From Polytrichum commune (Eukaryota > Streptophyta > Polytrichopsida > Polytrichales > Polytrichaceae): a stretch of DNA of 64,000 bases. The stretch spans positions 23,841,666-23,905,665 of the forward strand of contig OX485807.1 of NCBI GenBank assembly GCA_950295325.1, in the 5' to 3' direction. A model generated the notes under the pieces. The model ran no database searches and was not told the origin of the DNA. It saw only the letters and a list, made by a program, of their open reading frames with translations. Position 1 is the first letter of the stretch; each line of letters starts with the position of its first letter. Below are positions 3,101 through 63,226 of the stretch, piece after piece. The translations under genes were made by a program, and so were the position numbers.

Positions 3101-5954
3101 ATGTAGAAGGAGTGAGGCCTGTCATCACCGCTGTGTGAATGTATCCGGGGTCGTGCCATCCAAAATCATTGGCAGGATTAGACGCATTAGCTGCACACAC
3201 AGTGATCCATCCAAAATAAGAAATCCTGCCGATACATCATATGGTCGAGCTATATACAATCCTTCATTTCTTCCCATCTGTAGTACACTGGCTACTCTGC
3301 ATGCTTATAAAATTTCGTCGGTTAATGACTTACTAGAGGACATATCGATTTGAGTCCTGTCCGATTACACGTTGCTTAAATTACAATATTATTTGTCCTA
3401 CGAGATCTTACAGGACATTTGCGACGCTGTGAAGGTGGAAACGCTCGAATTAACGAGGGAGGCGCCATTGTATGCCACTTGCTGCGAGACACTGTCGCCA
3501 CTCACCCAGGTCAATCTCATCTGCCAATATGCCAAAAGACTTCTGTAAGTATAACTTCCTATGCAGCAGTTTGCAACTCAGCGAGGAGTCAGTCTGAGGC
3601 TATTTAGCACCTGACATGCATATATACTTATGTCGTACTTGATTAGGATGCTAGCCCATCTTTGATTTGTTGACATAAAGTGGAATAATTAGTACTACCA
3701 AGTAGTGGCAGTGGAGTCACAGAGGAACGATGGCCATAGAGTGGAGACTTAGGGTTGCCAATTTCCCAAAAGACTTCTGTAAGTACTTCTGCAACAATTT
3801 GAAACTCAGTTTGCAGTCTTTCTGAGGCTAATTAACCACCTGACATGCATACATATGCCGCAATTAGCATGCTCGATCTTTGTTAATATGCAACGCATAT
3901 TAAAATACATACCTGAGTGGCAGTGGAGTCCACTGAGGAAAGATGGCCATAGAGTGGAGACTTAGGGTTGGCAAACGGGAGCGCGGCGGATGTATTGAGC
4001 ACGCAAGGTACCAGGAAGCCACCCGTGAAGAATACGAAGGTGATGTCCGTTCGGATGTTGATCAACCGGAAGGTTAAGGAGCCACTGCAAGTGGTTGTCA
4101 AGCAATGTCCGGCCACCGAGTGCTGGCATGTGGACTTGTTACAGGATGTATAAAGGGGATCGTTTTCCAGCTTCTGGTACTGCAGGACCATTCATCACAT
4201 CATCAGACTCTTAAGACACCAATCTTATTGAGTTATGGCTGGATTTCTGTCAAAGCACTCTCCGCAGTAGGAGATTCATTTGAATTTTGAAGGATAGAGC
4301 TCACCACCGCACCGTTCAAAACAATGAAGTTGCTTCCTGTAAACTAAACTCAATAGTATAACCTATTATTACAATTTTCATGAAAGTTTGAACGCATTCA
4401 ACACAACATGACCTTCACTAAGTTAGAGCCCAGCTTTCCTCAGAAAGTAACCGGTTTAAATACTCTTCCATTAAGCAGGAAAGTGAATTTTCCTATGCAA
4501 TAGTTGCTACAGGGTGAGTTACGGAAGTTGACATGAATTGTATCTGCTCCAGATTAGAGAATGAAAAAGCAGGTTCGAGTGTAAACTGTGAAACGCATAC
4601 CTTGACAGGATAGTGACAGGTGTAAGGATTGGAGCTCGTGTCTCCAGTTTCAATATACAGCGCTGATACTGACAGACACTCATCCGTGCCGCTGGTTCCC
4701 AAACCCAAGCAGAAAGAAGCAAATTACATGAGCACCATAAATAATAACCTAGTCTGGTTTGCACAATGAATGCACGAGTGTCCAAGTTGATTGTTCCAGA
4801 AGTCCGTAGCTGGAGGTAGGGTATGATTTGCCAAGGATGATTTTCCTCACGGAATCCTCCATTAATTGATTCAAACAGGAAGCAGTACTTTGATCGTCTT
4901 GACCATTACGGAGTTGAGCTCTATCATTCCAAAGGAGGAGAGAAGTTCCTCCCTTTCAAGAGACTCCGAATCTTGAAGAAACTTAGTCCAAACTAACCGG
5001 TAAATTTTAGTAACCGTGAGTCATGCATAGGTTGCTACTACTTCCCCGGATTCACTGCAATTCTTGATCTCACTTGAACTGCACAACATGAACTTGGAGA
5101 ACACTATGTCTAACCTCAGCTACTGTATACTCTCAAGCAGATTGTTTAACGGGTCAAAACATCAACCTTCTACCAATTCAACTTCCAAAGCAACACCACC
5201 ACAAATCAAAGCAAGGCTCACTGCATCAATCAATTCATCACGAAGAATACTGCTTGAAGCTGAGTAACCGAGAGAAGGAAGAAAGTCTCAATTTGCGGTA
5301 CTGTAACGATGACATCTAGTCTTGATGCAGTAGTTTTAAGCCCGTAGTTCAAATTCCTACAAAATTTACATAGATCTTTCGGTTGAATCATCGTAGTTGA
5401 AGTAAAACTGCAAGCTGAATTAGTAACAGGTGAATGTGCTATCAAATTCAGGTGCATATGTGGAGAGTCTAATTAGTGCAATGTATTGCTCACTTGGCAG
5501 TCATAGGCGACATGATACCAATCCAATCCGAGCTGTCCGGGTTCGACACTCCGCTTACTGTCACGGTCACATTCTGCACATCCGCCAGGCTTCCGGAAGC
5601 ATCAATTGTCATGCCGATGTAAGGGTTAGGATCTTTGCACTGGGCGAGGTGTCGACGTCTATTGATACTGCTGAATACTTCATTCCGCAACACATGTTGC
5701 TCAGGATGTGATGGTATTCCTCCGGCAGCAGTACTAGCACTGGATGTTGTTGATGAATCATCTTTTGCCTGCAGCCTCCTTTCGACTGTGATGAATCCAG
5801 CACTCGGTTGCTCATGTTCTTTTGCAAATTCTCGCCCTGATGCTGGGTTCGTGCTCAGAATCATCAATAGACTGATGGTGAAGACGAACATAGCCATAGA
5901 CGAGTGCAGATTGCACAAACTAATTGTCAACATCGACTTCTTCATATTCGTCAT
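110..5954 (-). CDS. Purple acid phosphatase, high-molecular-weight plant type (PAP27/PAP1-like), 13 exons
   Basis: Metallophosphoesterase that hydrolyses phosphate esters; plant relatives are secreted, vacuolar or plastidic. Exons in transcript order on the minus strand: 5954-5494, 4691-4601, 4179-3913, 3520-3412, 3190-3079, 2831-2699, 2484-2306, 1819-1633, 1406-1339, 1135-1030, 793-602, 436-356, 160-110. The total is 2037 bases and 678 residues, with all phases consistent. Residues about 20-40 form a hydrophobic signal-like segment. The N-terminal domain carries DWIGI and CHYPVK (about 182-187), followed by FGWHDPGYIHTAVMTGL. The metal-ligand blocks are complete: GDMG (about 375), GDISY (414), GNHER (447), GHRP (536) and GHVH (578). 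The protein ends in the usual short C-terminal block and a TAG stop. The start is the first ATG of exon 1; an alternative is Met20. Two tandem duplications lie in its introns. Family assignment is very secure; substrate and location are not. Confidence 0.93.
1884..2304 (-). repeat. Tandem duplication of about 210 bp inside intron 7 of the acid phosphatase gene
   Basis: The stretch starting TATGATCTCAAAGCGTCACC near 1888 recurs from about 2097 with scattered substitutions. The following blocks (GTAGTGGAA-ACAGTTCT, GACAATGCA-GACC, TAAAGGTTTACTG, GTGGAAGATTGATTGG) recur in the same order. The two units are about 1884-2093 and 2094-2304. The second unit runs up to the 3' edge of exon 7 (2306-2484). 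No coding sequence is involved. Confidence 0.85.
3530..3980 (-). repeat. Tandem duplication (about 210-235 bp) spanning exon 3 end and intron 3 of the acid phosphatase gene
   Basis: Unit A (about 3530-3766) and unit B (about 3767-3980) share CAAAAGACTTCTGTAAGTA at one end. They also share CTGAGGCTA, CACCTGACATGCATA, GTGGCAGTGGAGT and GCCATAGAGTGGAGACTTAG in the same order. Unit B contains the real 3' end of exon 3 (to 3913). Unit A contains a decayed copy of that exon end. Confidence 0.85.
3703..3766 (-). pseudogene. Decayed duplicate of the 3' end of acid phosphatase exon 3
   Basis: Read on the minus strand, this matches the real exon end at 3980-3913 (encoding ANPKSPLYGHLSS and the residues after it). 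It has lost bases around the Ser-Val-Asp codons, which shifts the frame. Its donor position no longer shows the GTATGT present at 3912. It therefore sits as a non-functional exon fragment in intron 3, produced by the local tandem duplication. Confidence 0.75.
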
Positions 5955-29400: not shown

Positions 29401-30096
29401 ATCAAGATTAATAACCAAATTAGGCACACTTGCCTAATATGATGAAAGATTGTTTGGGTTTTGGATGCCAAATTTGCAAAATCCTAACCCTTGCCATTGT
29501 TAGACATGCAGTATTAGCTAAAGGTTTATGTTCAATGTAGATAGATATATAGAAATGCGAACTTTGATGAGAGGCACACGTGAATGGAGAGTCACTTCGG
29601 CCACAAGCTACTGCCACCTTTTGGTGGTGGACTCTAAGTTCAATGTAAAATATTCTCCTCCTCTTATCATGGATTTAGGGTGCCCGGAATCACTTGTGGA
29701 CATGCTGATCAAGCCCTCGCATGTTGCCAACCCCTTCAATCTTGAGTGTGAGGGTGCACCACAGATTACGTGTGTCTTCTTGGTGTATGCCCTCTTCTTG
29801 ACTTCATAGGAACGACATGCTTATTGTCCACATGGCCGGAGCATTTGGCGCTCAAGTTGACCTTTTGCATGCTTTAATTGCAAGAGAAACTAATGTGGGT
29901 TACTCAAGCAAAATGTCCAACTAACACATAACTTTGGTGTGTGTACAAAATAAGTAGTGTGTCTCTCCATAGATTAGCTAGAGTGTACACCATGGAAATT
30001 TTTGGGAGTAGAATCCCCATTGGTTGTTGGGGGGCAAGAAGGGTTTATGAGAAGTAGCTAGGTTGGTGTTGGCTGCCAGGTGGTTGGCGTTGTATC

Positions 30097-30880
30097 ATGA
30101 AAAGGAAGGCAACGGTCATGCGTAAGGAAAATGAGGTATGCGGTGACAACAGACTATGGCTAGTGCATTCGGAACCAATGTTGGGTGTGCAATGCCTTGG
30201 TGTTCTCCATTCAAAGTCTATGGGTTGTCACTATAGAGGTTGTCACAAGTTTTTTGAGGCCTCTGTGACTATTGCAGTGACTATTGAGTGAAGTTGATAT
30301 TGATATTAGACTTCTTATGGATTTGAGGAGGTTTATTCAAGAAAATTATAATGTTGGGTTGTGCCCTTTTGAGATGGGTGGTGCTTTGACTCATAAGCAT
30401 TTCCAAATGATGGTGAAGGGCAATTTTAGTAGCTTATGTGTGTTGAACAACAATATCAAGGTGGCTTTGGATGGCATGAAAATCCTCCGATGGGTCATGT
30501 GGTATCTTATAGGAAATTGAGAGATCATGTATTGCATACCTTCTTGGGCATAATTTGGTATTGCATGAAGGACAATGGGGAGGATCATTTTCAGTTTGTT
30601 CATCACAATGTGTCTATCGATGACATGAATGAGGGTGAAATGGAGTATGTGAAGTTTGAAAAGGTCAGTCTAAAGAATTATGTTAGTTTGTCTTATAGCA
30701 ACACTCTTCAAAGGATTCATCAATAGGCACAATTTCGTATGAAGAAGCATAATGAAGTCTATCTTCCCGGTACTTTGTTTCATATGTTAAGAGTAGGCAA
30801 TTTTATCCAAACTATACATGGATGATTTCATTGAGGTCTAGAGCATGGATGTGAGGAGGGCTACTTTCATTTAGAAGATT
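30097..30880 (+). pseudogene. Broken HUH (Rep-type) endonuclease of a mobile element, Replitron-like
   Basis: Degraded coding remnant of a rolling-circle-type nuclease. In one frame (about 30284-30470) a GGALTHKHFQ block gives the metal-binding HxH (HUH, Rep motif II). About 170 bases on, in a second frame (30436-30726), WYCMKDNGEDHF gives the YxxK catalytic tyrosine motif (Rep motif III). It is followed by a conserved-looking tail (LSYSNTLQRIHQ, then FRMKKH and LPGTLFHML). Two breaks are visible: a frameshift near 30460-30480 and an in-frame TAG at 30724 where Trp is expected. The order and spacing fit HUH nucleases of algal and plant Replitron-type transposons. The assignment is from memory of the family, not from a search. 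No helicase part and no clear element ends were found, so it is presumed inactive. Confidence 0.55.
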
Positions 30881-31569
30881 ATAATGTATCCTCGATCATG
30901 ACATTCAAATGGAGGATATTTTGATTTTTTTTTTAAACAATCATGGACGTGGTGAACACGAGGTATTTTAACTTGCAACAAATTGCCCTTGACCATAGGG
31001 TGGAGGAAAGAGAAATAAATAATACCTTGCATCATGATGATGATGGTCGTTTGAAAGAGGATAGAAGAGATCTTGCACTTCATGATTTGCAGTAGAGATG
31101 ACTAGAAGAAGATCTCCAAGCAAGAGTTGTTGAGGGTGGTAGCGATTGTTTTGTTGTGCGCATTGTGGGATATGTTGGAGAGGTTGTTGATGTTGTTGCT
31201 TACGACGCCAAGGTGGGCAGTAGGTGGTGTTGGGTTGGTAGCCTCAACCATGCATATTTGGCTTCCTCCGGGGTTCAACTCCGGTTTGCATCGGGGCAAG
31301 TTGGGTTCAGGGACGGCCTCACTGTTTGTCCCCTTGTATGTACCATCAACAAGTTGAAGGAGTCCAACGTAGAAGTAGCTTTGAAGGATTCCAATTGTAA
31401 ATAGTTATGCTTGGCAATAACTTAAAGTTTTTTTTGGTATATATATCCATGACATGGGTGTTTTTGTTGCTTGTTTTTTTGGAATTTTCCAACAAGTAGA
31501 TGCTAATTTAATCGAATTGCCAATAATGAATTAATGGCCTTTTATGTATGTTGTGGGATGTTCATGTGC

Positions 31570-45186: not shown

Positions 45187-45416
45187 CAATGGTTGGGGAA
45201 AACCGGTAGTTAGTTACAGTTGAACCGGTTGAGTTTGAGAAATAACCGGTTGAAGTTCCAAACTGCACAAAAATTACCGATCGTTTTAGAGGAATTCATA
45301 AAACATACCTCAATTTCATAAAGGAAACCCGGAGGATGTGAACATACAACTGGTTGGACTTGCAAACATTAGAATCTCAACTGATTATGCCCAAAAAACT
45401 CCCCGATCGATGCGCT
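45187..45416 (-). repeat. Family D repeat (AACCGGTT-rich), copy nested in the 44.8-kb element
   Basis: On the minus strand it matches 59563-59802 and 61375-61610. Shared landmarks are AACCGGTTA, a TTGAGGT/TGTTC block, CCTCTAAA.CGATCGGTA, GAACTTCAACCGGTTATTTCTCAAACT and a CCGATCG end. Confidence 0.65.
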
Positions 45417-46506
45417 TCACATGAGGGCCCGTGACCACACTACATGATTTTGGAAGTGTGTTGGGGCGGCCTTTGGGCACTTTCTCTTGGGCTCTCACAT
45501 CTTCATGGTCACGGCTCTTGGCTCATGAGTGAAGTGGTCCCCAATCACTGCACTTCACATGAGGGCCCGTGACCACACTACGTGATTGTGGAAGTGTGTT
45601 GGGGCGGCCTTTGGGCACTTTCTCTTGGGCTCTCACAGCTTCATGGTCACGGCTCTTGGCTCATGAGTGAAGTGGTCCCCAATCACTGCACTTCACCTGA
45701 GGGCCCGTGACCACACTACGTGATTGTGGAAGTGTGTTGGGGCGGCCTTTGGACACTTTCTCTTGGGCTCTCACATCTTCATGGTCACGGCTCTTGGCTC
45801 ATGTGTGAAGTGGTCCCCGATCACTGCACTTCACCTGAGCGCCCGTGACCACACTATGTGATTGTGGAAGTGTGTTGGGGCGGCCTTTGGACACTTTCTC
45901 TTGGGCTCTCACAGCTTCATGGTCACGGCTCTTGGCTCATGTGTGAAGTGGTCCCCGATCACTGCACTTCACCTGAGCGCCCGTGACCACACTACGTGAT
46001 TGTGGAAGTGTGTTGGGGCGGCCTTTGGGCACTTTCTCTTGGGCTCTCACAGCTTCATGGTCATGGCTCTTGGCTCATGAGTGAAGTGGTCCCCGATCAC
46101 TGCACTTCACCTGAGGGCCCGTGTCCACACTACGTGATTGTGGAAGTGTGTTGGGGCGGCCTTTGGGCACTTTCTCTTGGGCTCTCACAGCTTCATGGTC
46201 ACGGCTCTTGGCTCATGTGTGAAGTGGTCCCCGATCACTGCACTTCACCTGAGGGCCCGTGACCACACTACGTGATTGTGGAAGTGTGTTGGGGCGGCCT
46301 TTGGGCACTTTCTCTTGGGCTCTCACAGCTTCATGGTCACGGCTCTTGGCTCATGTGTGAAGTGGTCCCCGATCACTGCACTTCACCTGAGGGCCCGTGA
46401 CCACACTACGTGATTGTGGAAGTGTGTTGGGGCGGCCTTTGGGCACTTTCTCTTGGGCTCTCACAGCTTCATGGTCACGGCTCTTGGCTCATGTGTGAAG
46501 TGGCCC
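45406..46506. repeat. Eight tandem 138-bp units
   Basis: The marker GAG(G/C)GCCCGT starts at 45423, 45561, 45699, 45837, 45975, 46113, 46251 and 46389, an exact 138-bp period. Units differ at only a few positions. Each unit junction contains GTGAAGTGG(T)CCCC...GCACTTCAC, an inverse pair that resembles the element's own terminus. Because 138 is divisible by three, a repetitive open frame runs through several units; it is not considered a gene. Confidence 0.95.
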
Positions 46507-62474: not shown

Positions 62475-63226
62475 GGGCGGGTTTACGTTAGGATCCAGCC
62501 CCAAAAGACTTGGGGTCCAAAAGACTTGGTACATAATGGACCTTATAGTTGGACTCAAGCTTTGAGATTGGTATTCTCAAACTAGGAGGATGTTTTCTTG
62601 ATTAAGGACCATCGAGATTTGGCGTGAACTACATTGGGTGCCCATACCCATGCCCATGCCCATACCCACCCATGCCCATGGGTTTGGGTGGGCATGGGTG
62701 CAATATTATTGTTCATGGGTGGGCATGGGTGGGCATGGTTGCGATATTATTGTTCATGGGTGGGCATGGGTGGGCATGACTGCGATATTATTGTTCATGG
62801 GTGGGCATGGGTGGGGCACAATTACACAATCATACAAGACACATTACATAATTACACAATACACATTATACAATTTTTGAATACATGGGCGCAATTTGAA
62901 TAGCATGGGTGGGCACATGTCATGCTATGTGTAGGCATGGGTGGGCATGGGTGCGCACATGTCATGCTATGGGTGGGCATGGGTGGGCATAGGTCACTGC
63001 TGATGGGCATGGTCTGGGTATGGGTGCAATTAAAAAGGAAAATGTTGGGCTCTGGCGTGAAGTGAGGCCACATAAGCACCATTTCAAAACTTTAATTCAT
63101 AGCTTGGACTAAGATTCTATCATAAAACTTTGTTGTAACTCCTTGGATCCAAAACTTTGCTTGACCCATAGGATCACTCAATTTTAGGGTTTTTTTTTTG
63201 TCCTGGACCCTAGTATAAACCCACCC
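62475..63226. mobile_element. Harbinger-like element containing a CATGGGTGGG minisatellite
   Basis: The left end GGGCGGGTTTACGTTAGGAT is inverse to the right end CTAGTATAAACCCACCC. The flanks are TGA (62472-62474) and TAA (63227-63229). Most of the interior is tandem GGGCATGGGT-type repeat. It has no transposase. Confidence 0.65.
62640..63010. repeat. GGGCATGGGTGGG minisatellite with 41-bp higher units
   Basis: Three 41-bp units (GCGATATTATTGTTCATGGG plus two GGGCATG words) run at about 62700-62815, and shorter GGGCATGGGT arrays follow to about 63005. The left edge (62640-62700) has CCCATGCCCATA words that are inverse to the rest, forming a palindrome near 62680. Confidence 0.85.

Follow-up and report, generated by a model that had tools for sequence, protein, structure and literature searches.

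The window analysed here is a 64,000-nucleotide stretch of the moss Polytrichum commune (assembly GCA_950295325.1, contig OX485807.1, forward strand positions 23,841,666 to 23,905,665), and its positions 30281-30723 (+ strand) carry a Replitron HUH endonuclease in two pieces, which overlap in different frames. Replitrons are a recently described kind of eukaryotic DNA transposon. The first part of the endonuclease domain (30281..30517, + strand) contains the HxH block GGALTHKHFQ at 30377-30406, with its two histidines encoded at 30392-30394 and 30398-30400, and the second part (30433..30723, + strand) contains the YxxK block WYCMKDNGEDHF, with the tyrosine at 30559-30561 and the lysine at 30568-30570. 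An earlier note, made by a model from the DNA letters, had pointed to these blocks as having the order and spacing of a Rep-type HUH nuclease, and both were located as it described.

The two window pieces were searched separately against Pfam, and the YxxK piece matched PF21859 (Replitron_HUH) with 35.5 bits (E 1.5e-8, profile positions 90-127), which is above the curated cut-off of 28.5 bits for this family and beyond chance. The HxH piece aligns with positions 8-64 of the same profile, so that both pieces fall in register along it, and three further frames from the window which were scanned alongside gave no PF21859 match. The second piece was also recovered by a scan of the whole genome with PF21859 (C5:23872194-23872313, 33.9 bits).

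Related copies in the moss genome

Searches of the moss's own genome covered 408 Mb in 64 contigs, seven of them large. These seven agree with the seven chromosomes proposed for the ancestral moss (PMC13120521), and the plastid contig likewise makes a moss host most likely. In that contig trnR-CCG directly follows rbcL and precedes an open frame taken to be accD, an arrangement found in bryophytes and not known from angiosperms, and the plastid PsaB scores highest against the PDB sequences 8HTU, 6L35/7XQP and 7KSQ/7KUX from the moss Physcomitrium (1701-1705 bits, followed by 1667 and 1630 bits for other sequences). The PF21859 scan yielded 74 matches, 71 of them above the cut-off, among 119 candidates (all of which were scored), and these represent 73 loci on both strands of all seven large contigs, so HUH elements of this kind, which the earlier note had described as rare in eukaryotes, are not rare here. 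The Replitron_C profile, PF21860, gave 32 matches among 72 candidates, all above the cut-off, and 15 of these have a PF21859 match on the same strand no more than 700 bases 5' of them. Neither profile matched in 14 control genomes. Protein-level queries gave 150 matches to the 97-codon window piece (the best 150 of 190 candidates being scored) and 144 to the open frame of a paralogue, L006 (the best 135 of 389 candidates being scored), although one copy may account for several matches in either count.

The L006 paralogue on contig 1 (the same locus as L018, and hereafter L006/L018) contains both domains in one open frame of 289 codons, with 57.7 bits for PF21859 and 35.2 bits for PF21860, and keeps all four motif residues. 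The Replitron_C domain also shares an open frame with the HUH domain in L004 (the same locus as L019), and was not matched in the frame of L002. For motif conservation, 38 copies, being what was left of 46 loci after duplicates were removed, were stacked on the L006/L018 frame; they were picked by score and are hence the better preserved ones. Among copies with a letter at the position, the first histidine is kept in 32 of 36, the tyrosine in 29 of 36 and the lysine in 30 of 35, and these three residues are conserved above the average column. Thus neither of the outcomes named in the earlier note as speaking against a Replitron-like nuclease, namely the lack of a profile match or of conserved blocks among paralogues, came about.

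Identity of the element

We consider it very likely (a probability of about 95%) that the element in the window is the decayed remains of one Replitron copy, which encoded a HUH endonuclease of the one-tyrosine type with a Replitron_C domain behind it. This identification is made because PF21859 matches in the window, PF21859 and PF21860 together match in paralogues, the motif residues are conserved, copies are dispersed through the genome and the family shows signs of past selection (described below), and it bears out the Replitron-like reading of the earlier note with named profiles. In its two Pfam domains, its plant host outside the seed plants, its kilobase scale and its many dispersed copies the family is like the Replitrons already described, but it differs from them in that all of the copies examined here are decayed and divergent.

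Several observations weigh against this identification. The HxH piece by itself reached only 14 bits (E 0.064) on PF21859, below the cut-off, so that the profile search of both frame segments proposed in the earlier note succeeded for the YxxK segment and not for the other, and no solved structure matched the Replitron_HUH profile at E <= 10. The second histidine of the HxH block is kept in 25 of 36 copies, which is no better than the median column (0.70 for the commonest residue). Of the Replitron_C matches, 17 of 32 lack an adjacent Replitron_HUH profile match, although these may be copies in which the HUH part has decayed. Lastly, alignment of the 38 copies with their flanks and of the closest pairs, the route to the element ends which the earlier note had recommended, placed the coding block and some flanking stretches, with no copy delimited at both ends. 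Terminal repeats were not established in the copies and flanks aligned, the copies being too old, and neither were target-site duplications.

A remnant of a Helitron, a rolling-circle transposon with a HUH nuclease and a helicase, would share with a Replitron the character of a eukaryotic HUH-type transposon. In the frames tested (the window pieces and three paralogue frames), however, no Helitron model in Pfam matched at E <= 1, no separate search for a helicase being made, and the matches to Replitron_HUH and Replitron_C are contrary to a Helitron origin, which we therefore regard as highly improbable. Equally hard to credit is an endogenous viral Rep of the circular Rep-encoding single-stranded (CRESS) DNA virus type, for example a geminivirus-like one, integrated in the plant genome. 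The HxH block with a single-tyrosine YxxK block is the layout of CRESS virus and plasmid Rep proteins, and the YxxK block resembles Rep motif III, but the same frames gave no match to a viral Rep model in Pfam at E <= 1, a collection of viral contigs gave 58 pattern matches among which no relative was confirmed, and the high dispersed copy number, the long history of the lineages and the Replitron_C domain do not fit such an integration. No relative was confirmed either among 95 pattern matches in prokaryote genome contigs, and a search of PHROGs gave weak matches, the best with E 0.019.

For a Replitron, a mechanism may be suggested by analogy with other HUH enzymes. In the working enzyme the HxH histidines would hold a metal ion and the tyrosine of the YxxK block would nick one strand at the element end, the enzyme presumably remaining bound through a 5'-phosphotyrosine while the element moved through a single-stranded intermediate.

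One review passage names mosses among the hosts of Replitrons, so that on this partial view of the literature their presence is not unexpected in this host group and the known host range is unchanged. It is thus most likely that these are new Replitron copies in a host group where Replitrons are already known. Their significance is that a HUH transposon family other than Helitrons, confirmed by profile and by paralogues, was once abundant in a moss nuclear genome, and dozens of loci in this assembly should accordingly be annotated as Replitrons.

Selection, decay and age

Within the coding core, differences between the 38 copies (703 pairs) stood at 0.27, 0.24 and 0.47 for codon positions 1, 2 and 3, whereas the flanking non-coding controls were even over the positions (0.59/0.60/0.61 and 0.64/0.63/0.62). 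This third-position excess in the core, with even flanks, shows that purifying selection was acting on the enzyme when the lineages diverged. In the tree the window copy is joined to L020 on contig 2, its sister, with 98% support in the Shimodaira-Hasegawa-like approximate likelihood ratio test (SH-aLRT). These two copies have a Kimura two-parameter distance of 0.254 and differ from each other at 0.215, 0.197 and 0.222 of the three positions, giving a ratio of third to other positions of 1.08 (bootstrap 0.80-1.46). Such evenness is the pattern of two dead copies from one source, and the two come from a single source and have diverged without coding constraint since their death. The family thus illustrates its own mode of death, with selection while it was active and even decay afterwards. 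The silent substitution rate of mosses is near 9e-9 per site and year, and using this rate the divergence between the window copy and L020 would be of the order of 13 million years.

In the tree of the 38 copies the shortest end branch measures about 0.11 and the median one 0.18 changes per site, so that none of the sampled copies is recent. The best DNA identity to a copy other than itself was 77% for the window copy, 82% for L019, 84% for L018 and 79% for L010, in searches which scored the best 40 of 123 (window copy), 618 (L019), 149 (L018) and 122 (L010) candidates, so that younger copies could escape them; the closest pair among the matches listed consisted of L018 and another copy from its own contig, at 84%. 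Six of the 74 PF21859 matches (L011, L017, L018, L010, L012 and L057) span at least 118 of the 128 profile positions free of stops. All six were read, and each is broken before, after or in the motif, so the intact relative whose existence elsewhere in the genome the earlier note had thought possible was not found among these stop-free HUH copies.

The longest open frame raises the question whether the window element could be a Replitron-derived gene domesticated by the host, or a pseudogene of one, and not a transposon copy. L006/L018 has 289 open codons in which both domains and all four motif residues are retained, while over the core its near relatives differ from it by 2 to 8 length changes that break the frame. 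Its open frame, however, has no ATG before the HUH motif, the changes accumulated by L018 after it parted from L055 fall evenly on the three codon positions (15/13/17), simulated substitutions (substitutions only, with no length changes) leave L018 free of stops with a probability of 0.27, and the window copy itself decays evenly over codon positions. Domestication is therefore improbable as an explanation of the window element, if a little less so than a Helitron or viral origin, and as a candidate domesticated gene L018 is not supported by the even codon-position changes and the stop simulation.

With the window element read as a dead Replitron copy, the chances seem evenly balanced for and against the whole genome being a complete Replitron graveyard, in which a diverse population was long active, split into lineages under selection and then stopped everywhere. 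If this were true, the genome would be well suited to the question of what brings a HUH transposon to a stop.

Extent and damage of the window copy

The earlier note had counted one frameshift and one in-frame stop. The coding core of the window copy shows about six frame-disrupting length differences from the majority of the aligned copies, so the single frameshift is an undercount, and the stacked tblastn reading contains five stops, two of which lie in an out-of-frame stretch and two near a frame change; with four of the five in or near out-of-frame reading only one in-frame stop is clear, in agreement with the note.

The minimum extent of the fossil copy, consisting of the conserved coding block and a 3' non-coding part, is 30190..31533 (+ strand), as judged from conservation among the 38 copies, which climbs at about 30190 and drops at about 31490, and from pairwise homology to the sister L020, which runs with breaks over 30238-31533. 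The range of 30097..30880 given in the earlier note therefore omits the 3' part, which can be aligned to L020 down to 31533. A decayed N-terminal coding block lies 5' of the HUH core at 30238..30279 (+ strand) and is defined by a 42-base alignment to L020 4551-4592, which scores 56 where shuffles reach at most 40. Downstream of the core, 30724..31100 (+ strand) is a decayed C-terminal region with stops and frame changes, which by DNA alignment is the predicted equivalent of the Replitron_C domain and tail of the paralogues; the block holding it is identical to L020 in 683 of 892 alignment columns (77%) and the region is also read through by tblastn against L018. PF21860 was matched at the equivalent region in L006 and L004, the window region itself being placed by DNA alignment only. 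The 3' non-coding part (31316..31533, + strand) aligns locally to L020 5748-6005 with a score of 120 (shuffle maximum 42), and beyond 31533 the best alignment between the window and L020 scores 34, below the shuffle maximum of 38.

Candidate ends and length of the element

A low-confidence candidate for a 5' terminal motif lies at 29949..29962 (+ strand), where 14 bases match exactly the left homology edge of L018 and L055. The candidate motif is common to these two copies and is met again upstream of L011, L044 and the window copy. At 29949 it matches at 15 of 19 bases, and the best of 20 shuffles reached 14. Matches by chance are nevertheless frequent, in that 5 of the 38 copies score at least 15 of 19 somewhere upstream (L045, L044 and L020 reach 15 and L011 reaches 17), some of them probably by chance. 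Against it is also the stretch between the motif and 30238, which shows no clear alignment to L020 (score 38, with shuffles reaching 36), and no 3' repeat matching the motif could be fixed.

Described Replitrons have short direct terminal repeats of 5-11 bases, target-site duplications of 2-8 bases and lengths of 0.9-4 kb (Craig 2023, PNAS 120:e2301424120, as summarised in PMC10741241). Replitrons also lack terminal inverted repeats. The window copy is at least 1.3 kb long, and further stretches shared by L018 and L055 suggest up to about 3.3 kb in that branch, both bounds being within the reported range, with the ends not both fixed. L018 and L055 are on the same contig, separated by about 2.1 Mb, so the pair could be a segmental duplication.

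Two other copies showed rearrangements of their own. The Replitron copy L018 (contig 1) is interrupted at 3275-4424 by an insertion of about 1.15 kb. The insertion can be taken to begin with TG and to end with CA, with a duplication of 4-5 bases (ACGT/ACGTT) at its edges, and the related L055 shows the empty site; this may be a solo long terminal repeat (LTR). In L008, at about 1942-2533 (contig 2), a 5' part of the Replitron copy is present as about three tandem repeats, each about 262 bases from the next.

Surrounding DNA

Every closed stop-to-stop frame in the window (1-64000) is shorter than 180 codons, so that it is probably gene-poor, repeat-rich DNA. At 45400-46503 a 138-base unit occurs in 8 tandem copies (97% matches), and short minisatellite-like repeats with periods of 8 to 42 bases, several of which are G-rich, cluster at 62685-63007. 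Elsewhere in the assembly, fragments of the RuBisCO large subunit were found besides the plastid gene, on contig 3 (14137891-14138196) and contig 2 (70106055-70106189), and these fragments on large contigs are probably insertions of plastid DNA.
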